Positions 1 to 19,400 of a stretch of DNA of 34,640 bases are shown here, piece after piece; within the stretch, counting starts at the first letter, position 1, and each line of letters opens with the position of its first letter. The stretch lies in contig JAGRJO010000004.1 in the NCBI GenBank assembly GCA_020442725.1, positions 1-34,640 of the forward strand, written 5' to 3'. The position numbers and the translations under genes were made by a program. The notes under the pieces are model-generated. The model worked only from the letters and a program-made list of their open reading frames with translations, had not been told where the DNA came from and made no database searches. This DNA is from Lysobacterales bacterium. GTDB lineage: Bacteria > Pseudomonadota > Gammaproteobacteria > Xanthomonadales > Marinicellaceae.

Positions 1-36
1 TTTTTTGCACAAAAACCCGAAAGAAAAATCTGTTGC

Positions 37-112
37 GTCCCCTTCGTCTAGTGGCCTAGGACTCCGCCCTTTCACGGCGGCAACAGGGGTTCGAACCCCC
101 TAGGGGACGCCA
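37..112 (+). tRNA. tRNA-Glu (anticodon TTC)
   Basis: This is a complete 76-nt cloverleaf. The acceptor stem 37-43 pairs with 102-108, followed by discriminator G at 109 and an encoded CCA at 110-112. The anticodon stem CCGCC (64-68) pairs with GGCGG (76-80), and the 7-nt loop has anticodon TTC at 71-73. The T arm has the usual GGTTCGAAC core. It inserts glutamate at GAA/GAG codons. The 5' side holds only 36 bases of the window, so its promoter is not visible. No second copy of the tRNA 3' end was seen further on, so there is no proof that the neighbouring accessory DNA integrated here. Confidence 0.97.
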
Positions 113-328
113 ATTCATCGGTTCGAAAACTTCCTTTAATTTCAATCAGATATATCGTATATCAACTTCGTTACGTAACATTTCAACCTCTTGAAACACT
201 GTTTATCCCTGATAAATCAGCATTACATATAATCTATTGTTCTTAAATTTATATTCGTTTTAAATTATCTATTATCGACAAAAAATATTGGACTAATCTT
301 CCTCAAAAAAACAGCTCAATTTCAGCTC

Positions 329-361
329 TGTGACCAAAATGTGACCAAATTGTGCCCAACT
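329..361. repeat. Three tandem 11-bp repeats (TGTGACCAAAA type)
   Basis: Three head-to-tail 11-mers start at 329, 340 and 351: TGTGACCAAAA, TGTGACCAAAT and TGTGCCCAACT. The 11-bp period is about one helical turn, so identical groups would face the same side of the DNA. This is typical of arrays of protein binding sites. Related words (TGAACCAAAATG at 7284 and TGACCCAAAATG at 7317) recur just before the giant gene. What binds here is unknown; a transposase or a repressor are both possible. Confidence 0.55.
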
Positions 362-393
362 TGAAAATATTGAAAAATTTAAGATTTCCACAT

Positions 394-676
394 TGACCTC
401 AACACCGGAAAATTTCATGACCTCAACACCAATCAAAATTTTATGAGCTGGACACCACAAACTTGGACAAAATTTTTACTAAAGTTAATAATGACCTCAG
501 TACCAAATTTATTAATCTTGGTCACAACAGTCACAATAGGATTTAAGTTGAAGTGTTTAACAAATAAATAAAAATTTAACTTCGATACTTGAATAGTGAA
601 TTTAATCCAAACACTCCTGTGACTATTTTTGGTCACAAAAATAAGATACTGGAAAATGTAATCTGACCTCAACACT
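394..676. repeat. Cluster of degenerate TGACCTCAACACC direct repeats
   Basis: A 13-bp word recurs in the same orientation: TGACCTCAACACC at 394-406 and again at 418-430, TGAGCTGGACACC at 444-456, TGACCTCAGTACC at 492-504 and TGACCTCAACACT at 664-676. The first three copies are spaced 24-26 bp and separated by A/T-rich AAAATTT-like blocks. Multiple short terminal repeats of this kind are known at the ends of IS21-family and Tn7-like elements, so this may be a transposon-end relic. No transposase gene is present in the window. The variation in spacing and sequence argues against a CRISPR array. Confidence 0.5.
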
Positions 677-1179
677 TTAAGAATTTTGTGAAAATAGTAT
701 AAAGGTCATAGAATCTCTCCTAATGACATTAAAATCTTCATAATTTGTTATTAATAAAGTATAATTTCAATTAGATAACAAGGTTGAAATCTGTACCTTA
801 CTTGGTGTTATTTTTCAGACTTTGAAAAATTTTCAAATCACATGACAAGTTTTTTCTGATCGAACTGAATACGGATAATTGTAAAAAATATATGTATCCC
901 TTTTACAATTTATTGATTAGTTTTACTCAAAAAGATTTCACTACTAATTGAATACCGAATCTGGGTACTACTGTTGGTGCAACAATCAACCAGAAAGTTT
1001 TATTTAGCAGAGTATCATTTCCTATTAAAGTTTCAACTTCTGCAAATACTCAATATTTATCATGAGACCTAATTTATATTCGTCCTGACGATATCAATAA
1101 ACTCTTTGTCTCTGGTTTAATTACGTTAACTATCGTCTCCACATATGAATATGTCACTCTATTATTCACTGCCCGGGAA

Positions 1180-2448
1180 TTATGCAAAGGTATTAATAAT
1201 TTGTTCTGTTATATACTTACTATAGTTCCCATTATCGACATAATTATTGAATATATCTTTTGCTAGAACGACTAACTGAATATTATTGTCATTGACTTTT
1301 ACCTCTGATGAATTATCAATTAATTTATCTAGGTCAACTAAATAATTATTGTCAGGTTTAATAGCATCACCATGTGCTCCCAAAGCTATTAATACAGGTA
1401 TGTTTCTTTCATTGGAAAACTTTTTGTATCTTTGTGATTGACTTTTATAACACCAGGAATAGTCTTTTTTGTTATCTTCAGTCTTAAAGAAATAATCGCC
1501 TCTATACTTGCATTCGATTGCTAACTTTAAACCTGATTTGTGTTGAACAACCAAGTCAGGGTTTTGGCTTGATTCTGAATTCAGTTTATAATAACTGCCC
1601 TTGTCTGGACTCCATTCCAATATTTTAAAGCTTCTTTTTTCTACAAGACTAAGCGCAACACAATATTCATATTTTCTGCCTTTTAGAACACTCTCATAGT
1701 TTGTATCTGTAAAATCAATGTCGAAGTATTTAGCTTCAGATTGAATAATGGCATATTCCTCTTCCAGTTTTTCATAAGACGCTTTCATCTCATCAATGGT
1801 TATCTCATATTCTCTAATTTTTGATTCTTGCTCAACTAACTCCTTTAATTTAGTTGCAAATTCTAATCTCTTGGTTTTTATGATTTCGTCCAGCTTTGTG
1901 TTCTTATGTCTTAAAATCAAAAGCTCATTATTGACGCTTTTAAATTTGTTTTTCCATGATTTCGCCTCTGCCTTCAACTTGGAGATTCGTGAATATAAAC
2001 TATTGTTTTCAAATAGAGAATCTTTGAGTTTTCTCTTGTATAGGAAAGGCTGATGAACCCAATAAACAGTTGATAAAAAAGACAAAACCAGACTGATCCA
2101 AAATACATAGAGCAGATATCTGTGTGAAACAAACAAACCATCAAATATATTAAATCCGATATCGACATTTTCTTTTACCCACATCAAATCGTTGTTACTG
2201 ATCACCAGATTTTTATCCTGATATTTTTCAATATAAATTGAGGGCAAAAAGCGTCCCAGCTTTAATGATGCCAGAACCTTCTCTGATTGTGAGTCAGGAT
2301 CATATAATGAGATGCTTTCATCGGTTTGGTTTGAAACATACCTAATTTTATTAATTGGTAAATTTGTGTCGAAGTAACCTAGCAGGGTTCCGGAAAATAA
2401 TAATACATAAGTTGAAACTATAAATACGGCCAAAAGTATAAATTTCAT
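1180..2448 (-). CDS. Membrane-anchored coiled-coil protein with PD-(D/E)XK nuclease domain
   Basis: The 422-aa product has a hydrophobic N-terminal segment (about 4-24) and a second membrane helix (about 110-130), with a roughly 85-residue stretch between them that is probably periplasmic. A charged coiled coil follows (about 140-240), then a C-terminal nuclease fold (about 255-400). The catalytic pattern is visible: GRKYEY with E261, NPDL with D298, AIECKYR with E312 and K314, then YKSQSQRY and the strand IPVLIALG. This matches Mrr-like/Holliday-resolvase-like restriction endonuclease domains, so DNA cleavage near the inner membrane is the likely activity. ATG at 2446-2448 is preceded by AGGA eight bases upstream, which supports the start. 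It ends the leftward block, 66 bp after the HsdM remnant. A role in defence is inferred from the domain and the neighbours. Confidence 0.85.
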   Translation of the reverse strand: MKFILLAVFIVSTYVLLFSGTLLGYFDTNLPINKIRYVSNQTDESISLYDPDSQSEKVLASLKLGRFLPSIYIEKYQDKNLVISNNDLMWVKENVDIGFNIFDGLFVSHRYLLYVFWISLVLSFLSTVYWVHQPFLYKRKLKDSLFENNSLYSRISKLKAEAKSWKNKFKSVNNELLILRHKNTKLDEIIKTKRLEFATKLKELVEQESKIREYEITIDEMKASYEKLEEEYAIIQSEAKYFDIDFTDTNYESVLKGRKYEYCVALSLVEKRSFKILEWSPDKGSYYKLNSESSQNPDLVVQHKSGLKLAIECKYRGDYFFKTEDNKKDYSWCYKSQSQRYKKFSNERNIPVLIALGAHGDAIKPDNNYLVDLDKLIDNSSEVKVNDNNIQLVVLAKDIFNNYVDNGNYSKYITEQIINTFA

Positions 2449-2514
2449 GAAAAGTTTCCTTTATTTTTATAATGGGTTTCTAAATACTCACTTCGCTAAT
2501 ATTCTTCGATACTC

Positions 2515-2757
2515 CTAAACTCTTCCAGGGCATGGCGGTAATGAACCTCCAGTGGCATCTCTATCTAGCATCACAAAATGAGCACAATTGTACTTTTTAG
2601 GAACTACCAATGATTGACCTGCAAACGAGTGTTCATCTGCCATATTGAGAAAGATTAAATTGGTGATCTGTTCAACATAATCCCCATAACCCTCACCATC
2701 GTCACGGAGGACGGGGGTGTAATTCCAGACTTTGTTGACTAATTCGGATGTTGTCAT
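2515..2757 (-). pseudogene. hsdM: HsdM remnant: N-terminus of a type I DNA methyltransferase
   Basis: The 80-codon open frame starts at ATG (2755-2757). Residues 1 to about 42 (MTTSELVNKVWNY, then LRDDGEGYGDYVEQIT and FLNMADE) match the conserved N-terminal helical domain of HsdM, the modification subunit of type I restriction systems. A weaker match continues to VPKKYN (about 52-57). The remaining roughly 23 residues are unfamiliar, and a TAG stop follows at 2515-2517. HsdM is normally about 480-570 residues, and the whole AdoMet-binding and NPPF-motif methylase core is missing. This is therefore a non-functional stub created by deletion. It lies 51 bp after the 308-aa gene and marks this block as a former type I locus. 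Confidence 0.8.
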
Positions 2758-2808
2758 TTATTTTCTCTTTGTTGGAAGTTTTAAAATTGAGCTTTTTTGA
2801 GGGTAATT

Positions 2809-3735
2809 TTAAATTTGAACCTTTTCCGATACATCATTAAAGCTAAGTTCACCAATTTCCATTTTCTTTCTAATTTTTAATATCTTTTTCGAGGTTGGTA
2901 GCCCTTTTATTTTCAACTTACATTTAATTGATAATCTCTTAAAGAGACAATTTATCTGATCAATCACATGCTCACGTAAAAGAGATTGTGCGTATTTAAA
3001 ATTTAGCATTCGATAAAAAGTGTAAAATTCAGTACACCTATCTTGAGTCCAGTTTCTACCATTCCAGCCCCAATTTTTAGTCGCTGAGTCGATATATATT
3101 TTATTGTTTCTTCTGTATTTCATAAAATCAAAGTCTTTTTCTATTAATCCGCTATTTAAGTTTTCCCTATAAAAATCTGGACCCAAATTATCATATCTAC
3201 TCATTTGCTTTAATAGTTTTTGATACTTTTTCACTCCTCCAAGGCTTTTGGGGATTACTATTTCCCAAACTATACTTTGATTGGCGAATGAAAACTTTCT
3301 ATTCCAGATAGTTCTATCTGCTTTTGGAATTATTTGTAAGTAATAACCAAATAACTTATAAAGGTTTTTCGATGTGAAGCTTTTAATGTAAACCTGTTTT
3401 TTATCTTTAATAATTTCATAGTATGCTTGGCCATCCCAAACCAAGTTCCTAACAATATTATTTACTGCATCACAGACTATCTCTCTGTTGTCATATGCTT
3501 TAATTTTTCCAAGTTCTCGAATGATTTCTGTTGCTTTGTCGCATTCAGTTTTTTTTCCTTTAAACTCTACTAAGAAATTTTTCTGCCTACTTCTTCCTCC
3601 GATTGGCATAATATCCAGTTGAATATCTTCAATGAACATATGAACATTCGTAGCGATATTATCTGCTCGTGAAAGACTTGGAAAGTGCGTTGCCATAGTA
3701 GGTATAGTATTAGACCTTGACTGGTTTTTTTTCAC
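2809..3735 (-). CDS. Unknown 308-aa protein coupled to the membrane protein gene
   Basis: I do not recognise this protein. It is 308 residues, basic towards the C-terminus, with no signal peptide or membrane helix, so probably cytoplasmic. The stretch around residues 85-140 (VNNIVRNLVWDGQAYYEI, then KSFTSKNLYKLFGYYLQIIP) faintly recalls phage portal proteins, but this is far too weak to assign a function. A WGWNGRNWTQDR tract near residue 220 is unusually rich in tryptophan. The start is GTG at 3733-3735, overlapping the TGA of the 835-aa gene by four bases. A good Shine-Dalgarno (GAAGG) lies inside that gene's end, so the two are probably translationally coupled and made in a fixed ratio. 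The frame is intact although flanking restriction genes are wrecked, suggesting the pair is still under selection. Confidence 0.75.
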   Translation of the reverse strand: MKKNQSRSNTIPTMATHFPSLSRADNIATNVHMFIEDIQLDIMPIGGRSRQKNFLVEFKGKKTECDKATEIIRELGKIKAYDNREIVCDAVNNIVRNLVWDGQAYYEIIKDKKQVYIKSFTSKNLYKLFGYYLQIIPKADRTIWNRKFSFANQSIVWEIVIPKSLGGVKKYQKLLKQMSRYDNLGPDFYRENLNSGLIEKDFDFMKYRRNNKIYIDSATKNWGWNGRNWTQDRCTEFYTFYRMLNFKYAQSLLREHVIDQINCLFKRLSIKCKLKIKGLPTSKKILKIRKKMEIGELSFNDVSEKVQI

Positions 3736-6239
3736 TCTTTACCTTCCTCTTCTCTGTCTAAAGATTGTTGTAAATTACGACGTTTTCGACCAAAATCTAA
3801 CTCCTCACCTACTTCTTTGATCCTCAGATAATATGTAATAAAAATATCTATTCCGTCAAATAAACTACCATGCTTTTCTCGTGCAAAGATACGAATTAAA
3901 GCGCTTTCGTGATCTATTACTGTGTGTGTAAAACCAAATTGTCCTGAAGAAGCTTCATGTCTTGCTACATCAGATAATTTTCGATTGATGCGTATTTCCC
4001 AATTTGTACGTAGTACACTCCTATGGGCTAATTCAAAAGAATGCTCTGTAATAGCAACTGATGAAGCCAATAAAGGCAATGGGTTTTTTTTACTTCCTTT
4101 TGTTAAATATTCATCCCACACCCCCACTACTACCGACCATAATTGTTCATCATCGTAATAATCGGCCATTAATTTGGCATACCCAGATAACTCCATCAAA
4201 TCAAGTAGTGGTGCAGCTGCTATTTTAAAATTTCTCTGAGTATGTAGATCCATTGAAATGGTCTGTGGGCGTAACTTATCAAAAGACATAAGGCATCCAT
4301 ACAAATATGTTGGAAATACACTTCTCAATAAATTTTGATTATTATTTATTATTGCTTCAAATATGGCTTCACCAGATGTATGCAAAAATTGACCAGCATA
4401 ATCAGGGAAACCTTCTGGCCTTTTAAGAAAAGATAACATCAAACTTTGTTTTGACATCAACTCCATAAGCTCATTTTCACGTAACTTACTCTCTTGCTCT
4501 AATTTCTCTGAGTCAAAAGTAGACCAAGGAAGTCCTTTCACATTCCTACCCTGACTACATTTCGACCAAACATTTGAGAAAATTTTTAGCTGATTGTTAA
4601 CTTTATGCCAAAACTCCCACTCTCTACTAATGACAGAACCAGCTAACCAAGGATGCTTTGTTTTTGTTGTTTTTTCAATCCAAGATTTATATAGTTCCAT
4701 GCCTTTGTAAATAAGTGCTTCAACGTTTTGAACTAAAGTGTCAGTTTCAATTTGTAATATAAGCTCTTTTTGGTACCAAATTGGTGTTATTTTCCTACCC
4801 TCTGTCAATACTTCAAATTCTATTCTGGGCTTAAACCATTCTAAACGTGGCAAACAATATAATGGAAATCCATGTTTATATATATTTGAATCTTTATTCC
4901 AACGTACCCTGTTCAACTTATTTTCTATACTTTGGGGGTCTACTGTATTGACCTGTTCCCCACATGCTATTGCAATATTTATTGGTATAGATGCGAAACG
5001 CTCAATTACGGCGAGCTTTTCAAGAACCTCATTGGTTAATAGTGGCTTTTCTGATTCCTGTGATAGGATATTTAGAATTGAATGGCCCAAATTCTCCATG
5101 ATTTTCATTACTCTTGGAACCTGACCATTACTTGCCACTAATTTTAAATAAACTTCAATATAGTTTATCAATTCTAATACTTCGTTATATCTCTCCTCTG
5201 TTAAGTTAATTTCCAAACAATTATCAATAATGACTATAACTCTTTCCTCAATCCATTCTTTATCATTCTCAATTTCTGGCCCTAAAAATGTACCAGTTTC
5301 ATGAGCTATTGAAACACTTGAGTCATCTGATTGATACCAATTTTTGTGAACATATTTTTGCTCATACCATTGGCTATTTGATGGAATTTGGTTTTTCATA
5401 TCTTCGTAATACAATAAAAACTTAATTAGCTCTTTGCACATAGAAATATATGGAGTACCACGTAAATGGACTTCATTTCGTGTTATTTCTGCCAAAGTTT
5501 TCAGAGTATCTAAACTAGAAGAAGCGAGCTTGTTAGTATGTTTTTGAAAAGCCGAATCGTTCCAACGATATTCACCAGCAACAACCATGTTTAGAAATTG
5601 CTTTAGTTTGTTGAATAAATTGTAGCTAAGCGCTGTAGGATCAAACAAATAAAAGACACGCTGACCTAATTTTACAAAAGCTATAATGCCTACTCCTGCT
5701 CCCACAAGCATTACAGGAATTGCAATTTGTATTCGTTCAAAACCCAAAACACGAAAAGCTACTAGTGATATACCGAAGAAGGTAATAAAAGACAATAAGT
5801 GCATATAGACATTTCCAACTCGTTCTTGCGCGAGAAGGTCACGAATATTGTTAGGAACTTTTGCATATATGGAACCAGCAATTGTACTGATCGCTGCATA
5901 ATATAAACCGATAAATGCGCCACCAATTCCACTGATGGTTAATAAGAAAGAAACATAGTCCCCATCATCAGGAATTTTGAAAATTGTGAACTCGTAAAAT
6001 TCAATTACTTGAGGGTTAATCAATTGGAGTAAAATTGATAGGATTAATGCCAGTACAAGTTGCATTTGAGTAATTTGGAATAAATGCCGTAACCCAAATA
6101 GGCTATATCTTTTCTCTCTCGCAATATGTCTAGAGTTAAAACTTTTAGTACCAATCCAGAAATAAGCTTTCGACAGAAACGAACGTAGTTTCCAAAAAAA
6201 TTTATGCTGAGAAAAAAACATGAACCAAGAGTTTTTCAT
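3732..6239 (-). CDS. Large four-helix membrane protein of unknown function (835 aa)
   Basis: I do not recognise a named family. The N-terminal 200 residues hold about four membrane helices (roughly 58-76, 96-122, 146-166 and 170-190). They include a glycine-rich second helix (FLLTISGIGGAFIGLYYAA) that resembles pore-lining or oligomerising segments. The remaining 640 residues look soluble and mostly helical, presumably cytoplasmic, without a visible NTPase, nuclease or protease motif. The ATG at 6237-6239 overlaps the TGA of the chimeric restriction remnant by four bases. Its own TGA overlaps the GTG of the next gene by four bases. A membrane protein plus a small soluble partner inside a restriction island is a common plan for anti-phage systems that act at the membrane, but that role is inference from layout alone. 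Confidence 0.78.
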   Translation of the reverse strand: MKNSWFMFFSQHKFFWKLRSFLSKAYFWIGTKSFNSRHIAREKRYSLFGLRHLFQITQMQLVLALILSILLQLINPQVIEFYEFTIFKIPDDGDYVSFLLTISGIGGAFIGLYYAAISTIAGSIYAKVPNNIRDLLAQERVGNVYMHLLSFITFFGISLVAFRVLGFERIQIAIPVMLVGAGVGIIAFVKLGQRVFYLFDPTALSYNLFNKLKQFLNMVVAGEYRWNDSAFQKHTNKLASSSLDTLKTLAEITRNEVHLRGTPYISMCKELIKFLLYYEDMKNQIPSNSQWYEQKYVHKNWYQSDDSSVSIAHETGTFLGPEIENDKEWIEERVIVIIDNCLEINLTEERYNEVLELINYIEVYLKLVASNGQVPRVMKIMENLGHSILNILSQESEKPLLTNEVLEKLAVIERFASIPINIAIACGEQVNTVDPQSIENKLNRVRWNKDSNIYKHGFPLYCLPRLEWFKPRIEFEVLTEGRKITPIWYQKELILQIETDTLVQNVEALIYKGMELYKSWIEKTTKTKHPWLAGSVISREWEFWHKVNNQLKIFSNVWSKCSQGRNVKGLPWSTFDSEKLEQESKLRENELMELMSKQSLMLSFLKRPEGFPDYAGQFLHTSGEAIFEAIINNNQNLLRSVFPTYLYGCLMSFDKLRPQTISMDLHTQRNFKIAAAPLLDLMELSGYAKLMADYYDDEQLWSVVVGVWDEYLTKGSKKNPLPLLASSVAITEHSFELAHRSVLRTNWEIRINRKLSDVARHEASSGQFGFTHTVIDHESALIRIFAREKHGSLFDGIDIFITYYLRIKEVGEELDFGRKRRNLQQSLDREEEGKE

Positions 6240-6532
6240 GGGTTCAGCTCTAATAAGTTTCCACTAAAAGCCGATGCTAAAATCGACTGTTTGTTTTTTT
6301 CAGCTTTACCAAACTGTTTTTCAACTTCCGTTTCAAGCTTTGAAATCAAGTTAAGTTTTTCTTCAACTATTTCAATTATCGTATCCCGAACAACCACTCC
6401 ATGAACGCCTTGATCTCCGGAATAAAGATTCATTGCTTTTTTATCCTGAATGACCCAGCTTGCCGATTCGAGTTTGGCATCGATTTCCAAGCGTGTTTCT
6501 GCTTCTATTTTGTCAGTGGGTGGTGGTGTCAC
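6236..6532 (-). pseudogene. Chimeric type I restriction remnant: HsdR N-terminus fused to HsdS C-terminus
   Basis: The 98-codon open frame starts at GTG (6530-6532). Residues 1 to about 48 (TDKIEAETRLEIDAKLESA, then WVIQDKKAMNLY) match the start of HsdR, the motor-nuclease subunit. Residues about 52-96 (IIEIVEEKLNLISKLE, then KNKQSILASAFSGNL) match the C-terminal conserved helix and SILA-AF-G tail of HsdS, the specificity subunit. The join falls around 6376-6400. An internal deletion removed nearly all of hsdR and hsdS and joined the ends in frame. Neither half keeps catalytic or target-recognition parts, so restriction activity is lost. It may still act as a translated leader, because its TGA overlaps the ATG of the 835-aa gene. 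Confidence 0.8.
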
Positions 6533-6600
6533 GGTTTATCTCAGATTATTCAAAATACCGGAATTAGTTTATGAATCCCTTTTTCTATACAAATTCAAAT

Positions 6601-6629
6601 AATATAACTGATTCGAGAAATATTTACAA
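6601..6629 (-). promoter_or_regulatory. Candidate sigma70 promoter of the leftward block
   Basis: Reading leftwards, a -35-like TTGTAA (6629-6624) and a -10-like TATATT (6606-6601) are separated by 17 bp. Transcription would start near 6594, about 60 nt before the GTG at 6532. The boxes match only moderately and the region is AT-rich, so a chance match is possible. No operator-like palindrome was seen. Confidence 0.4.
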
Positions 6630-6666
6630 ATAGGGTTTTAGTTGTTTATGTTAATTAGGTTTGTAA

Positions 6667-7161
6667 TATAAATCATTAAAACCACTCAATAATATTCGTC
6701 AAAGAGAAACAATAGCAAACATTCCTACGTTCTGTCAGATATTTCCTAAAATTAAATCATCAAATAAAATATTTGAAGCATTTAATTTTTCAGAAGAAAT
6801 GATTTCCATATTTGAGGGATATGTTAAAAGTGCAATTTAGGAACTTGGTTTTATTTTTACAGTTGCCAATTAATATACAGGCTCTCATAATCGAGCAATA
6901 AGCGATGAAATAATGGCGACTCTCAAATCTTGCAAAATATTGATAACGGACTTTATCCATCAGAGAAAAAGTGTATATTTTGAAACTGGTTTTTCAATGG
7001 GAATGAAAACTCCTATTATTTGGACTTGCAAAGAGGATCATTTAGAAAATCTATCATTTAATACTAGACAATTTTCACATATTGTTTGGACACATGGAGA
7101 GGATTTGAAACAACAAATAAAAAATCGATTAAAGTTATTATTTAATTTCTTAGTTAGATAG
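6667..7161 (+). pseudogene. Decayed nucleoside 2-deoxyribosyltransferase/TIR-like protein gene
   Basis: One reading frame (starting at 6667) stays recognisable across two in-frame stops, TAG at 6838-6840 and TAA at 6871-6873, and ends at TAG 7159-7161. Before the stops it reads KIFEAFNFSEEMISIFEGY. After them come HNRAISDEIMATLKSC, ILITDF, SVYFETGFSMGM, PIIWTC and NTRQFSHIVW. This order (strand-FDEEM, DDEI-A-L, VADFT, GVYFEAGFA-GLG, PVIWTC, FDTRQ-NHIVW) is that of a Rossmann-like family usually annotated as nucleoside 2-deoxyribosyltransferase-like and related to TIR/SLOG NAD-sensing domains. Intact relatives often occur in defence islands. No start codon was found at the 5' end, so the N-terminus is also damaged. 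The open part from 6913 is only the C-terminal half, so a working product is unlikely. Confidence 0.75.
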
Positions 7162-7330
7162 TTTCAAGAAATTGATGTCTATTATGGTATAGGTCAGTCA
7201 GGAGGTATTTAGACAGATAAAATTAATTAAACAGAATACAATCGCCTTGAGGCGAAAATTACATTATGATAACTTAAACAAAATGAACCAAAATGTCTCT
7301 TAATTTATGAGGTCGGTGACCCAAAATGAT

Positions 7331-7360
7331 TTGACGACGTACTGTAAGTTACAGTATGAT
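7331..7360 (+). promoter_or_regulatory. Sigma70-type promoter of the giant operon
   Basis: TTGACG (7331-7336) and TATGAT (7355-7360) each differ from the consensus -35 and -10 at one position and are separated by 18 bp. Transcription would start near 7367, giving a 5' leader of about 70 nt before ATG 7438. It is correctly placed and directed for the 6135-aa gene and the RHS gene behind it, and no other promoter as good was seen in 7162-7437. Confidence 0.65.
7340..7356. promoter_or_regulatory. Perfect palindrome between the promoter boxes, likely operator
   Basis: TACTGTAA, a single G and TTACAGTA form an 8+1+8 perfect inverted repeat. It fills the spacer between the -35 and -10 boxes and overlaps the first two bases of the -10. 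A dimeric regulator bound here would block or reshape the promoter. The position is like that of MerR-family sites, but their spacers are usually 19-20 bp, so an ordinary repressor fits as well. No regulator gene is adjacent in the window. Confidence 0.55.
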
Positions 7361-7405
7361 ATAAACTTGATTGATGAACGAACTCAGACCGTTTTAGCAG
7401 GTGGT

Positions 7406-7433
7406 TTATCAATCATTCATTTTAAATTGATAA
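7406..7433 (+). promoter_or_regulatory. Inverted repeat in the 5' leader next to the start codon
   Basis: TTATCAAT (7406-7413) and ATTGATAA (7426-7433) are perfectly complementary arms around a 12-nt loop, ending four bases before ATG 7438. In RNA this would be an AU-rich hairpin occupying the ribosome-binding region, where no clear Shine-Dalgarno is visible. It could tune translation or be a second DNA operator. The stem is A/T-only apart from one C-G pair per arm, so its stability is low. Confidence 0.35.
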
Positions 7434-7437
7434 TTTT

Positions 7438-10400
7438 ATGACTACTAAACCTCATTTTGACTTTCTCAGAGTATTATCTTTCTTTATTATTTTTCAAGTC
7501 TTTCTATATTCGATTTGTGCAGCTGATGCCTATGAATCAGATGTGGTTGCTGGTGCTTCAAAACCATTCGATTTTGAAAAATTCACTAATCAATTTGAAG
7601 CTGATTATGTAGAAGAAAACCAAGGAATATCAATTATCAATTTTGTTGGTAATTATGACAAAACAATTGATGGAATGCCAAATCATGAGGCTAGACAGGC
7701 TGTAATGCATGAGTTTTTTCGGCATCAGGATGATGATTATGATTTCATTTTTGTTTTTACCCAGTTTGAATTTGATACAGGTGAAGCAACAGCTTTTGCA
7801 AACAGCATTTTTAATGATGTTGAGGGGATAGGCAAAGAACTTTTTGACTACAGAGCAAATTATTCGTCCGGTATACTGCAATCAATAATTGATATGGCAG
7901 ATGTAAACAGGTGGGAGTTTAATCCTGCTAATAGAAATTATGATGCCTTGCTTGATACTGTGATTCATGAATTTATGCATCGTTGGGGAATTTCGGTAAA
8001 GTATATTGATGCAAATGGAGAAGTTAGTAATCGCCTTTTAGGAAGATCTAATAGTCACTGGAGCTATTATTTTAATTCCAACGCATCAGTAATGTATGGT
8101 TCTTTATGGCAAGAAATACAACAAGGCCAATTTCAAACTATTGATACACGTCACTCTTTAAGCCCGCTTGATTTATATCTGGCGGGTTTTATAGATAGAG
8201 ACTCTGTAGCTGACATGTTTGTTATTGATAATGCGAGTCAGGGTCATAATACTGATATTCCTCCTCCTGTTGGAACAAGAATTAGTGGAGAAAAAGAACT
8301 TGTTTCCATTAATGATATCATTGCATATGAAGGACAAAGAATCCCCGATAATGTAAATTCCCAGCATGAGTTTAAGGTAAAGTTTATTTTATTAAAATCA
8401 CCGGATGATGAAATAGATACAATTGCAGTTGCCAATATTTTTACCTTAAGCAAAGAATTCCAAAAAAGATTCCACGCAGAAACACATGGCATAGGCATTA
8501 TACATCTGAATCAAAGCGAAAGTATATTAATTTCAGATCCTGAAGTTTTGGCCTATGTTCCTGGAACGCTTGAGACATTTGACAGCAATCTAGCCAAATC
8601 ATTTATTTTATCTAAAGGAAATTCATGGTGGGCTGATAGAAAGTCCAGCAAAGTTAGAGATACCATCGCAGTAATTAAAGCACTACAACTACTGGTGCAA
8701 GAATATCCTGAGCTCTCTGGAGAACTTGACTCAGCTATTCTTTGGATTAATAACTATCAATGGGAAAATCAAGATGAAGTTGCCTGGATGCTTTCTAGTG
8801 GAGTATTAAATAGTGAAAAGACACAACAGCTTCTTGATGAAATTTATTCTAATGAGGGAAACACAGGTGGCTGGGGTCTGAAGAGCAATGAAAACTCATC
8901 TGTCTATGACACAATCTTAATATTAGATACCCTTGCTCAAGTTCAGGATGATGAGCTGAACCTGAGTGCTGAAACAGCTCAATTTATTTTAAACAATATA
9001 AATGAAGATAGTGGCTCTGCTTATGTGTCAGGTGGTGAAAGCAGTTTGGTATCTTCAGCAATACTGCTAAAACACATTGATAAATTAACATCAAGTATAC
9101 AGATAAAAGACGGCCTGATTCAATTTATCCTAAGCAAAAAAAATCCAGACAACACATTTGGAAACGGAACCGCTTATGAGACAGCTATAGCAATCATTGC
9201 ACTTAAATCTTTGGGCGATGATTCCTACCAACCACAAATTAACTTCTCTAAGTCTGCATTGGGTAGAATGCAAAGTGTGGATGGGTCGGTTCAAGGTAGT
9301 ATTTATTCTACAGCACTTGCAATATCATTAATTAGTGAAAATTCTCTGGCTAATTTGCTGTTTGCTGATAGTGAAATTTCAAGTGCAGAAATCACAGCAG
9401 GAGAGCAAATTACCATAAACTATACTATTGAGAACAATGGTAATGATATTGCAGAAAACATCGAGGTTTCAGTATATAAAAATAGTATTGATACCGGTAA
9501 CCTGTTACAAAACATAATAATACCCTCATTGCCCATATCAGAGCAGGTTGAAAATGAAATTATAATACCCACAGAATCTTTTAGCGGCACTATTGACTTG
9601 TTGATTGTTATTGATGCCAACAACGATATAAATGAGTTCAATGAAGTTGATAATATTCACAGCTTCACAATACATAGCAGAGATGTAGATGACACACCAG
9701 AATTGGTTTTTGACCGGAGTGACTTTCACATATCTCCCACACAGTTCGATTCATTGCCCATTGATATCGTTTCTAACATCACAATATCTAACTTATCGGC
9801 GGTAGAATTGAACAATGTAGAAGTCAGCCTGTCATTACAAGAAATTGATAGCTCCTATACAATTCTGGAAGCACAAACAGTTAATTTACCTCCGCTTTCA
9901 AAACAGCAACTAATATTTAATCATCAAGTTCTTCAAACAACGACAGATATACAGCTACTTTACAAAATTGATCCTGAAAATGCTATTGGTGAACAAAACG
10001 AACAAAATAATAGCCATGTTTTTACTATTGAAAAAATTTCTACAGTTGACCTTGAAGTAAATAACGAAGGGATTGCTGTTCCGAGCCAAATAATGGCTGG
10101 TGAATCCTATGATATCGCATTTCATTTTATTAATAGGGGAACCGAAAGCTCCTCATCTTTTGATATTAGAGTATATGCTGATGGCAACAATGAATCCCAG
10201 CTCATTCATCAATCACAGGTGGCAGAGCTTGCAGCAGGTGGGCAAAATAGTAGAAGTGTCAGTTGGCAACCTTCTTCTGAAGGAGACTATGAGTTAAGGT
10301 TTATTTTGGATGAAAACAACAATGTTGCTGAAACAAATATACTGAATAATGAAGTATCCATACCAGTTCGGGTGTTAGTGAATCAAAACACAAATCTTGG

Positions 10401-13400
10401 GATTGATGAAAATAATACTACAATCTCTCCTGATCCTGGGCTTCAGGGTCAGAATCTTCATTTTTCTATTGACGTATTTAATGATTCCAACCAAGACTCC
10501 GGTGAGTTTGACATCAAAATATTTAGACAGTCTGATGTTGGTAGTACAAATGTTTTATTACTCAATCTATCAGATAATGCAGAAATTCCTTCACAAGATT
10601 CTCGACAGGTTGAAGTAGATATTGATGTTGGAGACCTTGTCGGAGAGCACAATTTTATTATTGAGATAGATCCGGAGGATGAGATTGTTGAATATAATGA
10701 AAATGACAATTTGGCAATACTTCAACACCAGATTCTAAAACTACCTGATGCCCAGGCCAATACCGGAAGTTTTCAGTTGACACCATCTATTCCAGTAACA
10801 GGAGAAAATTTGTCTGTTACCATTAGTGTTAATAACATAGGCGAACAAAATATAAGCTCACTAGATGTCTCACTATATACTGGCAATAATCAAAATAACC
10901 AGCAAGAACTGGTTGAATCACAAAATATACCTCAACTTCTTTCGGGTCAATCCAGTAATGTTGTATTTGATTTTATTTTCCCCAATGATAATGCTGTTGA
11001 TAAATTGATAGTAAAAATTGATGAGAATAATTTAATAAATGAAGGAAATGAAAACAACAATGAAGCAATATTGTTAATAAATAACCAGGATGGTTCATTA
11101 TTTGTAACAAATACTGATTTTTCGCCAAATGGAGATAACATTAAAGATGAAACACTAATAGTTTTTAATGTTGACGAAACCTCTGATTACAAGTTAATAA
11201 TTTACGATAATAATCAGCAAGTTATTAAAAGCGTTGAATCTGAGGATTTTCTGAATACCAACTATGGTGATTTTCTATGGAATGGTAAAAATGATAGGGG
11301 AATTATAGCTCGGGACGGCCATTACACCGTAAAATTGGAAAACTCAGAGAATGAAGTAACAGCAAGTGTTGTTATTCATATTGACACTAACAACTCATCA
11401 CTTTTTGAGTCGATGAAATCGGCTGATAGTCATTTCTCCAGCTTGAACTGTCTGTTTGATAGTTCAGGTCAGCTTAAATATTCCAATGACGGAAAGTATC
11501 TTTATACAAGTAGCTACCGTAATCTGAATGGTGAACTTATTAAAGGTTTGTTCATTATTAAAGCAGATGGTTCATCGATAAAGTCAATATTGCCTGAATC
11601 AATTTATTACTCTGATTCAGGTAACACCAGAAATGCTGAAATTGAATTTTTCTCAGTATTGCAGAACAACGATATCTTCTTCATTTTGGAAAGAAAAATA
11701 AATTTTTGGACTAGAGTACAAGAATTTTACATATCTGAATCGGCAACACAACTCATCAGAAGGATATCTCCAGATATAGAAGACAGTAGCTTGAGAGTAT
11801 TAACTGTGAAGGATAGATTTGCGATAGTTGATGCCGAAGGATTGTATCAAAAAATCTATTTTGACGGTACCACACCGAAACAGGTACAGGATGTTATTGA
11901 AGACAGTCAAGCAATAGCAGAAGTGAGTTCTGGAATGATTTTCCAAAGAAGTCTGTTCACTTATCCCGCAACTGTAAGCTTATACTTCTTGAGTTATGAT
12001 TACAATCAGGAGCCTGAAGTCTTCTTATCTGATATTGAAATAAAGGACAACCAAGCCTTCATTGATAGTTTTTATAAGAAAGTGTCTGCCAACCGTAATT
12101 TCCTGGCTCAGGATGATGGTGAAAGTGTCCATTTTTATTTTTTCCATGATTTCAGCCTGACCAAAGTGTTTGATAAGCCTGTCAACTCAGCTGACTCCTA
12201 TGGTCTCACTTCTTATGGTGAATTATATATATTCAATGAAGATGCTAGTATGAGTTTATACAACTCTAGTGGGAGCTTATTGCTTAATACGGAAGGATTT
12301 TCATCAATACAAGAATTTGATGAGTTTTTGCAAAATGGCTTTTCAGTAGAGGTCAATATCCAAGATATTGATGTTTATGTGGATTCCTCAGGATTAATAG
12401 ATTCATATATTTCTCAGAAAATAATTGATTTTACAGATAGCTCTGATTCGAAGCAACTTACTTTTATTATTGAAAATCAGTTATTTGGTACTTTTAATAC
12501 ACCGGAATGTCCAATATTTGCAATCTGTGACAACTGGCCTGAAACAGTATCTGATGTCAAAGTCACCAGTTTGAACAAAATAATAACAATCGACTATGAT
12601 GATCTGTTATCACCAGATATCAATGTCTCTGGTTCAATATCTGAAAATATCAGATTGAGTCAAATACAAGAAGGTCGAAGCTCTCTGGTTAGAGCCACTA
12701 TGAGTACAACTGGTGTTGACCACTTTTATGATATAAACAATATTGAATCAGGTGCGATAAGCTTTCAATTGACTGAAAACATCTCAATTAATAATTCATT
12801 TCCGTATTTGAGCATCAAAGATGAATTTGATAACTTTGGAATCTGGCCTAAGCATAGAAAAGTAGGGATTTTTGATTCATTTCTTATATCGGATTTAGGT
12901 AATAACACGATTCAGTACAATAACTGTCCTATTGAAGGGGGGACTAACTTTATCTATCGATCCAGAGATAATTTATATGCTGATGTTGCACTTAAAAATA
13001 ATGAACAAGTCATTGAAATCAGAGCTACTGCTTTTGATAAATCATTTAAAAAATATGATATTTACTGGTCATCACTAGCCTCTCCTGCGAGCCAATGGAA
13101 TTTATTATACAGTTCAGAGTATGCACCCAATGGTGAAATTGTTCAAAACTGGCTTCCTCCTGCTAGTGGACCTTATTCAGTCAGAGTGACTGCATATGAT
13201 AATGCCGGAAATCAATATGAAGATACCGAAACGATATCAACCACCAGTATTAATACACCTGTTAGAAATATCATTGTATCTCCACAGTATTTCTCTCCAA
13301 ATGGCGATGGCGTTCAAGATGAAGTTTTAATACAGTACGATGTTACTGATATAGCAGAAGTCTTGGTAGAAATTCAAGATGATTCGGGTTTGACATTACA

Positions 13401-16400
13401 AACCTACATCAGGGAGCACACTACACCGGCTCAACTTGAGACCATTCATTGGGATGGAAAAGACTCAAACGGAAATTTATTAGGTGATGGGGAATATAAA
13501 ATCATAGTTAATGGTATAAATTTTGAGGTTACTCTGGATACAAAAGCAATTGAAGCAGAACTGATATCAGGTTTGTATGGAAGCACTTATGGAGAGTTCT
13601 TATCTTTATTAAGTGAAATTGTATTGCCTACAAGGGATGAGATTGAAGAACAAATAGGCACTCAGGATTACCACTCTCATATAACACAGATTTATGATGA
13701 ACAATCCGAACAATGGCAAAATACTCAATCAATGGAGAACATCCTTCTGGACTCTGAAAACCTGACCTCCAGCTTTAATTCGAGGTATCGACTTAAAGTT
13801 ACTGATAAAGCTGGCAATATCGGTTACTCGGAGATTCAACACCCAGAGGAAATTCAATACAGAAAAGTTGGGCTATTAAAGAAAAACGAAGACCTTAATG
13901 AAACTGAAGAAATTCGCTTTTTGTATAGGAAAAATAAAGTCGAAACGGCAAATAATGCAGATGAATCAGAAAATTCGTTTGTAGTTGACTGGTCAACTGG
14001 TGACAAGATTGCTTATGTTATTCAAGCTCTTGATTATGAAGATATCGAATTTATCAAATTCAAAACCAGATATCAGAATGGAAACGATATCATAGAATCA
14101 GAATCCAGACTGGTGAATATGCTGTCAAGGACAGAAGCAGCCGATTATCTAAGGGATAAATATGCAGGAGATAACTCAAATATTCATAACTTTGTAGATA
14201 TATTTGTAGATACTGGAGCTAATGAAAGAAAAATGCCAGTTTTCATGATTGAGCTGGACAAAATAGACTTTCCTGATACAAGAGGATATATAGAGGTATT
14301 TTTTGAAATCAAGAAGTTGTCAAGAACGGTTCATTTGCAATCAAAGGTTAAATTTGTATCAACAGGAAATAATCTTAAGTTCAAAAATTTAACTTTCGAC
14401 AGTATTTTAGATTTGCAAGGTTTACCTGAAATTGCAGAAGAAGCTTATACAAATTTGTTAATGAATGTCAGAGAAACAAAAGGCTTTGAATACTATTGGG
14501 TGTTTGAGGAAGGAAACAATATTAATTACTTGAACTCATCACTAATAAGAAGAACATCTGAAAATGGCAATATTCAATCAACTGACATGTTTTCTGAATA
14601 TTATATCGACCTCACCGATTCATACAGCTCCAGAATATATGCACTGCCAAAACCGGAATGCCAGGTGCAACAACAAGTTTACTGGAGAGCCGAGACGGAT
14701 ATTGGTGATGTAATCGAGTCTGATGTATTGTTTTCTGAGAATGTTTTCTGTATTGAACCGGAAATGGAAGCGTCATTTTATTTGGGAGAGTTTTGTAGTA
14801 ATAACGACCCGGGAAATTCACCAATTCAATTTGATATTAAAGTAGAAAATATTCCTCCTGAATCCTCTCAATTGGTTCTAATTGAGCTCTATAATGAATA
14901 TGACCAGCAGCTCGTTTTTTCTGATACCAATCCTCAAATTCAATATGATGAAAATAATAATGGAAATTATCATTCGGTTGCGAGTTTTAACACATCTCTT
15001 CTCCCAAATGGCAACTACGATTTCAGGTTAGTTACGACAGATCAAAACGGAAATAGTAAATCAGTATTTGAGCGTGTCATTATTAATCATGAGCCAACAA
15101 CAAACTGGATATCATATCCACAGCCAGGAACAAAAATATGTGGTAATGATCAAATTGCCATCAATGCAGGTATCAGCAACAGTCTGGGGTACAGCTCAGA
15201 AATTTATCTACTAACAGAACATAGTGTCTATGGAGATACACTTATCCATCAGAACTACAGAAGTTTTGACAAACTGTCAACGACAGGTTCACCTGTTTAT
15301 TTGTCAGATGATTTTTCAATTTCTTCGATGGACGGTCAGGCTACATTAATCCTTGAAACTCATAACTCCTCAGGGATAAGCTATTGTAGCAGCATTGATA
15401 TTCATATCGACTCTATAGTTAACACCACTATAGCTATAAATGAGGCTTTTGACTCAGAGTTATTGATATTTTCACCAAACTCCGATAATCAATTTGATAC
15501 TTTAGGGCTGTTAAACATGGAAGCACATGAAAGACTGGATATTCAGCTTGACTTGTTTGATATAAATAATGAAGAACCACAATTTGTTGGAATCTTGTCC
15601 GCCAATACACTTGATGTTAACCAGGTTGTGGAATTTATATGGGACGGAACCTTTCAAGGCAATACAGTTGTCGACGGAGAATACCGGATTGATATCTCAA
15701 TAACCGATGAATGTGGAAACAATCAAATAAATAAATTTCCAATAACAATTGATACAACTCCACCAGTTGTCGAATTCCTGAGTCCTATTGACGGAGAAAA
15801 CCTAAATGCTATACAAAGAATAGCTGTTGTTATAAATGAATTACATCCTGGGTTCAATCTGGAGTCAAGATTAAAGGTTGAGTTCCTTTACAATGGAACA
15901 TGGAATGAGATAGATGAAAATAAACAGTTATCATATGATGGTTCGCAACAGGTATATATTTTACAACTTGACTGGAACACAACAAGCCTACCACCAGGCT
16001 CATACCCGTTGCGTATCACATCAGAGGATGTGGTTGGCAATATTTCTGCAACACAGATTACTCCGGTAATACAGGAACAGCAAAATATATTTTGGAGCTT
16101 TTCAGTAATTCCAACATATATTTCACCCAATGCAGACAATGTAAAAGACAAAACAACAATAACATTCGGGCTAAATACTCACTCAAGTATTTCTGTAGAT
16201 ATATTTGATGGACAAGGAAATAGAGTCAGAAATTTGACTGATAATCAGCAGTTTACTCCTCAGCAACATCTAATTGAGTTTGATGGTTTCGATGATGACT
16301 TGAATGTTCTGCCAGATGGTACTTATATCGTTACTATTTCAGCGACTGAAACAAATAATCCAGCCAATACTTACTCTTTGAATCTGGAATTTATAGTCGA

Positions 16401-19400
16401 TAACAGTTTGCCACAAGTACAATGGATAAACCCGGACTCTCAAATTATTAAAAATACTGGGTTTGCATCAGTCTCGCTTACAGAGTCACACCTGCTAGAT
16501 ATGCAGGTAACAAACCAAAAGCTGAACCCCTCTGGTCCTGAAGTTACAGTACTATCTACAACGACAACAGGAGTATTTGACTTGCTGACACTGGAATCTT
16601 TGGAAGAAACACAATATCAACTTGTAGCTCATGCTCAAGATTTGGCTGGAAACACAACTTACAACACAATAAGCTATACCATAGACAAAACTCCACCGTT
16701 AATCAATTTGATATCTCCGGTCGCAAACTCAGTTATTGGCGGCGATAGTGCTATTGTAAATGTAACCGGCGAGATCACTGATACCAACTTCGATTACTAC
16801 GATATATCAATAGCACCTGTTTCAAATAACCCGGTGTGGCAAACAATACATACCGGAACTGAATTAGCTGACTCAGGTTTTAATATTGAACAATCGCTGG
16901 CGGTAAATGACGGATTATATCTTATTAGATTAACGGCATACGATAAAGCAGGCTGGCAATCTGAACAGACTGTTGAAGTTATTTTGGATACAACCGCTCC
17001 AGTCTCTCTTATTTCACAACCTTCAAATAACTCAACAATTGCTGCCAATAGTCAGGTTTTGGGTACAGCCACAGATGATAACCTAGATTTTTATACGCTT
17101 TCCTATAAATTATCAGGCACAACTGAATGGAAAATCATTAATATAGGGCAAACCAGTATCTCATCTGAACAATTGGGTCTTATATCATCAACTCTGGAAT
17201 CTGGAGATTACCTAATCAAACTTAGTGTACAAGATAAGGTCGGTTTGATTTCCAATTCGGAAATAAGTATCACAATAGACAATACGCCTCCTCCTTCACC
17301 AACAAATCTTACAGCACAAATAGTAAACAGCAATCAAGTCTTGTTGCAATGGGATTCGGTCAATTCTCAGGATTTCGCAGGGTATATTATTCATCGCAAT
17401 GGCGAGCGTCTAAACCAAATAATTTTTGACCAAACACAATATACAGACATCAATCTGACTGATGGTGAATATATCTATCAGGTGTTTGCACAAGATAATG
17501 CAGGGAATATCAGTCAACCAGACAACTCTGTTTCTATCACAATAGATACAACTCCGCCGACAGTTTTTATAATAACTCCTGCTAATGAACAGCGAGTTAA
17601 CAGAGTTATTGACATTACAGGCAATGCAACCAGTTTACTAGACTTCAAACAATTCGATTTGTACTATCGAAACATCAATAATGCAGCACCAGGAACTTTA
17701 ATAACTCATTCACCAGTTCCGGTGAATTATGGTCTGCTTGGCACATTGGATACCACTTTTTTAGCTCAGAATCAGCAATACATAATCAGGCTGGAAGCCA
17801 GAGACAATCACGACAATATTTCGGTAGATGAGAAAATAATTTATGTTGATAATGTTGCCCCGGCTGTTGTATTAAACTTGACGGCTGAATTACAGGGAGA
17901 AAATTCGGTTTTGTTACAATGGACAGCCAATAGCGAAACAGATCTTGCCGGATATTTGGTATTGCAAAATGGGGTCGTCATCTCAGGAAATGGAACAGGA
18001 GAAATAAGCATAGGAAATGCAATAACAGATACCAGTTTAATGGTAGAAAACCTGAATGACGGAGAACATACATTCCATCTGATAGCGATAGATATCACGG
18101 GTAATTACAGTTCTCTGAGCATTCCGGTGCAGCAAACAATCAACACCAGAGTGCCTGATACCATAATTTCTTCTCCGCACGATGGTAGAAAATTTGAATC
18201 ACCGATATTGTTCTCTGCAACCAGTAATGATCTAGATATTGCAGAAATCAGTTTTTCATACTCTACTGACAATACAAATTGGGTGTTACTTGCAACAGAC
18301 ACAACAGAGCCGTTTCAGACTACTTTGAACCCGGTTTCACTCGGTCTGAATTATGGAAATATTTATTTACAGGCTATTGCAACAGATTACAGCTCCCAAA
18401 CGGACTCCACTCCAGCCCGGATAACAACCGAATATACCGATATTACAGCACCGGAACCAGTTAACAACATCACCGCTAGTGTGGACGGGGGAGATATTAA
18501 CCTGAACTGGGATGCCAATAGTGAAAATGATTTACAAGGGTACAACATCACCAGAATTTTCAATGGTCAGAGCATATTATTGACAAGCACTCCGATTACG
18601 GATACAGCATATCTGGACACAAATCTTGCTGATGGAGAGTATAGTTACAAAATTGTAGCTATAGACGACTTTGACAACTCATCTGATGCTACAACAATGA
18701 GCGGGCTGCAAGTGTTCTCAATAAACCTTAACCAGCCATTTTCCCCGATACTAACGCCACAACAGACCCAACTATCTGGCTCAAGTGTAACTAAGGAGGG
18801 TTATATTCAGTTGGTTCTACAGAATACCAATGGCAATACTGCATTGCCGGATATGTTGCTTACAGACACCTATGGTTTTAACAGTCTGCCCATAGACCTG
18901 ATACCAGATCTCAATATATTGTCAGCTACCCATATCAAAGAAAATGGAGACAAAAGTAAAATTCAAACAATAAATATTGAGCAAAGTCCTGTACCATTGA
19001 TACCGCTAAACTTTCAGGTGAACTCAGTCGATTTTACCAGCGAACTAAGCTGGGATGCTCCAGATACAGCAACATTTGGATACTTGCCATACAGGAATTC
19101 AACACCAATCTATCCAATCTCAAGAGTCATGTCCGGTATCAGTTACCAAACCAGCTCCAATGACTATGCAGATGACAGGGTTTCTGATGAAGACCCGCAA
19201 ACTGTATGGAGTCCATCATATAGTGATATTACAGATTACAACCCGACATTTATAGAATTAACATTTGATGATAAAAAATGGATTACAAGTGTTGAATTTC
19301 ATTGGTATGAAGATTTTGAGCAAAATATATACAGCCCTTCATCGTTCCAGCTTCAATATCACTCTTCGGTTGGTTGGGTCACTATTGAAGAAATAGAAAA

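Follow-up and report, generated by a model that had tools for sequence, protein, structure and literature searches.

A mobile gene pair encoding a membrane protein and a predicted portal-fold protein in a decayed restriction-modification locus

The portal is a hallmark of tailed phages, herpesviruses and gene transfer agents; no stand-alone cellular protein of this kind is known to us. As objects of bacterial immunity, portals have been described in two cases: the phage portal YonE activates SpbK (PMC12847820), and Avs4 binds a phage portal (PMC12847820, PMC12931631). Of two further defences, Tab blocks virion assembly by acting on the tape measure protein (PMC10884400), and SNIPE is a membrane-located nuclease that acts during DNA injection (PMC13190303). 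Here we analysed a stretch of 34,640 nucleotides from a Lysobacterales bacterium (contig JAGRJO010000004.1, positions 1 to 34,640; hereafter the window), in which two genes, termed A and B, lie among the remains of a type I restriction-modification (R-M) system. A encodes a membrane protein and B a soluble protein with a predicted phage-portal fold. The two genes always occur together, and we put at about 0.5 the probability that their products form a membrane-anchored complex against phages or mobile elements that is built on a domesticated portal.

A conserved gene pair in a collapsed type I locus

On the minus strand of the window, four closely spaced frames run from 6532 to 2515.

6236..6532, minus strand: in-frame fusion of the start of HsdR to the end of HsdS, an open reading frame (ORF) of 98 amino acids and a deletion remnant
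3732..6239, minus strand: gene A, ATG start, 835 amino acids, with four N-terminal transmembrane (TM) helices and an all-helical cytoplasmic region of about 640 amino acids
2809..3735, minus strand: gene B, GTG start, 308 amino acids, soluble, predicted phage-portal fold with stem/clip and C-terminus shortened
2515..2757, minus strand: N-terminal stub of HsdM, 80 amino acids, 51 bases downstream of B

A and B overlap by four bases (GTGA), and the fusion ORF overlaps A by ATGA, through which its translational coupling to A is kept. Using tblastn with the proteins of an intact relative in genome G358, we matched the first part of the fusion ORF to HsdR residues 30–77 (window 6541–6383, 53% identity), its second part to HsdS residues 458–502 (window 6388–6254, 49%) and the stub at 2515–2757 to HsdM residues 5–71 (67%), with divergence beyond. 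These matches indicate that a deletion took most of hsdR and hsdS and spared an in-frame leader into A. hsdM is broken as well, its remnant lying downstream of B. PADLOC profiles also recognized the R-M remnants (MTase_I, 1.1e-14; Specificity_I, 1.2e-10). The original prediction, made from the letters of the window, had placed two intact coupled frames between an HsdR/HsdS chimera and an HsdM stub; the overlaps and the tblastn matches show that its coordinates and description were right.

The pair was found at 15 loci including the window, in Gammaproteobacteria, Betaproteobacteria, Bacillota and Poribacteria. Beyond the window these comprise two Paenibacillus plasmids, one Burkholderia glumae plasmid, nine genome contigs and the genomes G358 and G546; 14 loci are distinct, because identical protein accessions appear on both Paenibacillus plasmids. 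At all 15, A and B are adjacent, in the same order and in overlapping frames. By our own count the overlap is four bases at 10 loci, one base on the two Paenibacillus plasmids and longer at L011, L013 and G546. The pair is rare: A was present in 2 of 369 genomes of the class and B in 2 of 398 of the phylum, the window's own included in each case, and among 61 relatives only the window's own genome carried A. Where copy number was checked, B was present once per genome (12 of 12). No third conserved component emerged when all ORFs of at least 40 amino acids lying up to 1.5 kb from the pair were compared with one another at 12 loci; apart from the HsdM stub shared by the window and L008, only an unrelated helicase similarity and, between two relatives, matches at the start of A came up.

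Both proteins keep their full length in homologues at ∼30–80% identity. Between the window and L007, the proportions of differences at the first, second and third codon positions were 0.27, 0.14 and 0.49 for A and 0.30, 0.23 and 0.50 for B. The corresponding NG86 estimates of nonsynonymous (dN) and synonymous (dS) divergence were dN 0.23 and dS 1.8 for A, and dN 0.31 and dS 1.9 for B (two of six pairs gave no dS). These sequence comparisons indicate that A and B are under purifying selection; as dS is near saturation, they do not give a precise ratio. The original idea of a pair kept intact amid broken R-M neighbours thus holds up in the full-length homologues, the variability of third codon positions and a dN far below dS. 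The A protein of L008, a betaproteobacterial metagenome-assembled genome (MAG), is 67% identical to that of L009, a Peptococcaceae MAG, compared with 41% to that of the Paraburkholderia locus L012. Provided that the MAG binning is right, the pair would have been transferred across phyla.

Predicted structures of B and A

B contains no hydrophobic segments. An AlphaFold2 model (predicted local distance difference test, pLDDT, 81.9; predicted template modelling score, pTM, 0.83) was compared with the PDB using VIA-align, which aligned 692 chains, 118 of them at Z≥8; by the tool's own note, the best Z of models without a clear match is typically 7–8. All 50 listed entries were portals or portal/neck complexes. 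The best was the portal of Haloferax tailed virus 1 (Z 11.7, root-mean-square deviation 3.9, 226 residues), and those of T4, lambda, P74-26, gene transfer agents, SPP1 and HK97 were also listed. A Foldseek search against predicted viral proteins gave 7 matches at E≤0.001 (best E 7.7e-5), and its top named matches were portals or COG4695 proteins, some top matches being unnamed. The match spans approximately residues 24–286, nearly the whole fold, at only ∼10% identity to any portal. What the original prediction had noticed as a faint portal-like stretch therefore extends, at the level of predicted fold, over almost all of B, whereas similarity between sequence profiles was not significant (see below).

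In the model of B the wing strands are followed by a long C-terminal helix, a strand and short helices, as in phage portals, and by eye the order and length of its C-terminal elements agree with those of HK97 gp3. It is, however, shorter, at 308 residues compared with ∼360–500 in the listed portal chains. From the end of the wing to an fGvP-like motif, B has 66 residues, about 50 fewer than the 115 of HK97 gp3 (motif FGVP); this span was 114–117 in the 7 of 21 portals in which a single span was measurable. From the motif to the C-terminus there are 87 residues in B and 129 in HK97 gp3, about 40 fewer. Judged by these spans, the stem/clip and C-terminal parts look reduced; the motif spacing suggests that ∼50 residues of the stem/clip are missing, with the motifs of the two proteins paired by eye.

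B further differs from phage portals in lacking capsid or terminase genes nearby, in having a membrane partner and in its lack of a Pfam or PHROG match. Among the ORFs flanking the pair at the loci that were read by eye, no capsid, terminase or tail genes were seen; neither A nor B had a match in 50,697 phage records, and pattern-limited scans confirmed neither in viral contigs. An ordinary prophage portal was rejected as an identity for B because no phage neighbours were seen and no phage record matched. As the resemblance extends to the fold and to neither the sequence profile nor the genome context, we refer to B as a portal-fold protein and not as a phage portal. A confident likeness to a known non-defence family had been named at the outset as what would speak against a defence pair, and B shows half of this, being like phage portals in fold only and not in phage context.

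A has four hydrophobic segments (residues 61–79, 99–117, 148–166 and 170–188), and its predicted model (pLDDT 80.7, pTM 0.72) agrees, with four helices in the TM region followed by an all-helical region. The four membrane helices that the original prediction gave to A are thus supported. If the N-terminus is inside, the large helical domain would be cytoplasmic. Conservation peaks in TM2 and the next loop (GGVFIGLYYAAIS...YAKVPNNIRDLLAQER) and around QRxFxLFDPT.

Neither protein belongs to a family that can be named, as had been anticipated from the sequence. Pfam, NCBIfam, PHROGs and PADLOC gave no convincing match for A or B, and 10 members of each family were likewise without one; for B this includes the Pfam portal families (PF04860 among them), and phrog_12 appeared in 1 of 10 members at E 0.52. 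Fold searches gave a portal fold for B, whereas for A they gave generic helical repeats and no family: the matches in the PDB and among viral proteins were to solenoids, importins and designed helical repeats included, and we assigned A no fold. The membrane part of A gave a weak collinear hhalign match to DUF2254 (PF10011) over TM2–TM4 (score 27.7, P 0.027, probability only 1.8%; the highest of 30 reversed or rotated controls scored 20.9). A has no hmmscan match to this family, and the cytoplasmic part is unrelated as far as tested.

Genomic surroundings and mobility

R-M genes adjoin the pair at four of the 13 distinct loci other than the window (G358, L008, L009 and L010) and are of types I, III and IIG. 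As background, N6_Mtase gave 52 strong matches (E≤1e-20, counted by eye) in 146.8 Mb from 56 genomes, about one per 2.8 Mb; allowing for several such families, we assume a rough chance of ∼1% per locus of an R-M gene within 5 kb. In G358, hsdR and hsdS lie upstream and an N-terminal fragment of hsdM begins 6 bases past B; farther downstream come a complete hsdM and two nuclease genes, one of HNH type and one of Mrr type. Because the assembly is broken within A there (its first 89 amino acids are on one contig, the remainder on another), the order hsdR-hsdS-A-B-hsdM is deduced and not read from one contig. At L019:7755–9893 (G358) the start of hsdM occurs three times, the complete gene being preceded by two N-terminal fragments, a pattern suggestive of repeated gene insertion at the hsdM start.

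At L008 the genes upstream encode a type III methyltransferase and a restriction enzyme of the BPTD_3080 family, and an HsdM stub lies downstream. At L009 the first 47 amino acids of a methyltransferase are encoded after B and share 89% identity with a methyltransferase annotated on a plasmid of Aminobacter, and at L010 a type IIG-like methyltransferase lies just upstream of the pair. L013 (Dyella mobilis) carries a PDC-S31 candidate defence gene ∼2.2 kb upstream. Palindromic AAAGGGGTC(A/G)GATTCC-type elements are repeated and scattered around the pair at this locus (L013:7799–9656 and 14905–14965). The original prediction had proposed checking whether homologous pairs recur in defence islands, and this is so in part: the two-gene unit recurs, with R-M genes beside some copies and not beside others such as L007, L011 and L012. 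Type I genes or stubs stand beside the pair at only three of the 14 distinct loci (the window, G358 and L008), and obligate subunits of type I R-M were rejected as an identity for A and B because most loci lack such a system.

Several loci bear marks of mobility. At L015:9335–13577, a 53-base repeat of a tRNA-Ala end (94%) flanks a 4.2-kb island with essentially only the A-B pair, and at L014:8975–14753 a 16-base exact repeat of a tRNA-Leu end flanks the pair and a PIN-domain (PIN_12) gene; no recombinase was seen in the former island and none was evident in the latter. In G546 the pair adjoins genes for a tyrosine recombinase, a Mu-transposase-C protein and an AAA protein in a Tn7-like neighbourhood, which has a TniQ-like gene, named by eye and unconfirmed, and a weak TnsA-like match that missed the cut-off (E 1.3e-5). 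Three records place the pair on plasmids, and on that of B. glumae a gene annotated as VapC lies just upstream. The pair is linked to defence genes and is mobile.

In the window itself, two further features border the locus.

1180..2448, minus strand: a 422-amino-acid neighbour outside the conserved unit, which combines a coiled coil and two hydrophobic segments with a C-terminal region that is PD-(D/E)XK-like
37..112, plus strand: tRNA-Glu at the locus edge

The 422-amino-acid protein adjoining the pair is a candidate membrane-tethered nuclease, its nuclease motif having been read by eye; Pfam PDDEXK_15 matched it only at E 0.011, below the cut-off. No repeat of the tRNA-Glu flanking the locus was found within window positions 1–7440. 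An 82-amino-acid frame at 6913–7161 (plus strand) resembles by eye part of a nucleoside deoxyribosyltransferase-like protein; it has no Pfam match and is apparently a gene remnant. Beyond it, also on the plus strand, lie a repeat-rich surface-type protein of 6135 amino acids (7438–25845) and, overlapping it, a YD-repeat (Rhs-like) protein (25830–34640) that continues past the end of the window, both named by eye.

Possible roles and comparison with known systems

We propose that A and B form one membrane-anchored complex, as their overlapping genes and constant pairing suggest, which would protect the cell or the carrier mobile element against phages or other incoming DNA. B would be a domesticated descendant, or a fold mimic, of a phage portal that has kept the ring-forming core and lost much of the stem/clip, the part that docks terminase and tail, and of the C-terminus. 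As portals make rings, B probably assembles as one too. With its helical domain, A may anchor B to the inner membrane on the cytoplasmic side, and it may also provide the membrane-acting part. Recognition would most likely fall to the portal-fold ring, which would engage either DNA itself or a component of phage DNA packaging or head assembly, and A would respond by permeabilizing the membrane or blocking DNA passage. This proposal is supported by the portal fold, the obligate pairing, the R-M linkage, the mobility and the survival of the pair past the loss of R-M in the window, and also because phage portals are known triggers of immunity, as with SpbK and Avs4 (PMC12847820). A more specific version is tentative: an immune complex with a host-owned portal, in which a B ring docked on A serves as a membrane gate or sensor for DNA or packaging parts and answers through A, might be the first portal outside a virus-type particle.

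Several results weigh against such a complex. The fold of B comes from a single AlphaFold2 prediction made from a 10-sequence alignment. An hhalign comparison of B with 21 HK97-type portals (HK97 itself and the 20 of 30 portal loci with a usable ORF) was not significant, with scores of 21.4 and 18.4 and P of 0.078 and 0.15 for the untrimmed and trimmed alignments, respectively, while 40 reversed and shuffled controls with the trimmed portal alignment scored up to 18.7. The region aligned is collinear with the fold, but no more than that. As a further source of diverse portals IMG/VR was tried and left unused, as it returned near-identical HK97 relatives or two matches, and proof of B-portal homology from sequence was given up on the hhalign result. 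Should B really lack the clip, terminase would be unlikely to dock on it. The fold search with A was uninformative, with generic helical-repeat matches only. PADLOC-DB 2.0.0 (2023 release) has no model for either protein, giving nothing for A and only DpdC at E 0.15 for B. Finally, no defence genes were seen near the pair at L007, L011 and L012 or on the Paenibacillus plasmids.

Other explanations share part of this evidence. B could act as a portal decoy that makes virions fail by joining or capping the phage portal or its partners (scaffold, terminase or head protein) or by competing with them, A being its membrane anchor and no more. A portal fold with reduced stem/clip and C-terminus might suit a dominant-negative subunit, and Tab offers a precedent for blocked virion assembly (PMC10884400); we nevertheless judge this unlikely, as it is hard to picture how B could co-assemble with diverse portals at ∼10% identity and a large, conserved 835-residue membrane partner is left unexplained. 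Instead, the ring on A could engage double-stranded DNA as it crosses the inner membrane, either to block phage or conjugative entry or to serve DNA movement of the carrier element. Portals are DNA-conducting rings, A would by its presumed topology sit in the inner membrane with a large domain in the cytoplasm, and SNIPE is described as a membrane-located defence at DNA entry (PMC13190303). However, no library searched gave a DNA-binding or ATPase match for A or B, and the genes beside the pair include no conserved relaxase, helicase or ATPase, which makes a DNA gate improbable in our view.

The pair might also help its element and not the cell, B being left over from a phage satellite or a gene-transfer-type element. 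Its portal fold and the tRNA-repeat mini-islands with no recombinase seen inside would fit such cargo, but the flanks without visible virion genes, the lack of phage-record and confirmed viral-contig matches, the R-M linkage and the retention within a collapsed R-M locus make this doubtful. Least probable, we think, is a spurious portal similarity in an unrelated membrane pair such as a toxin-antitoxin or stress system. The non-significant profile tests would be expected of it, yet the model of B is of high confidence, its listed matches are all portals with Z well over that of matchless models, and the C-terminal elements fit HK97 gp3 in order and length.

If a membrane-anchored, portal-based defence is what A and B provide, a conserved, horizontally spreading pair would be a new means of using a phage component against phages or DNA entry, in a compact two-gene system of ∼3.4 kb. 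A defence role would also explain why the pair survived where the restriction system collapsed.

Our search of the open-access literature found neither a host-encoded portal-fold defence protein nor a membrane-protein partner of one, which is weak evidence of absence. With SpbK and Avs4 the pair shares the portal as a molecular object of immunity. There, however, the portal is the phage's own and is sensed by a host TIR or STAND enzyme, whereas here the host encodes the portal-fold protein and no TIR- or STAND-type enzyme domain was matched. Tab is set apart by its target, the tape measure protein, and SNIPE, although similar in membrane location, by being a nuclease. To the extent covered by these sources, none of the four systems includes a host-encoded portal. 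The pair resembles accessory genes in type I R-M operons in that A overlaps the stop of hsdS, or of its remnant, by four bases in G358 and the window, and differs from them in that most other loci with the pair lack type I R-M. The combination of A and B, with its presumed role in defence, lies on present evidence outside the known kinds of system.

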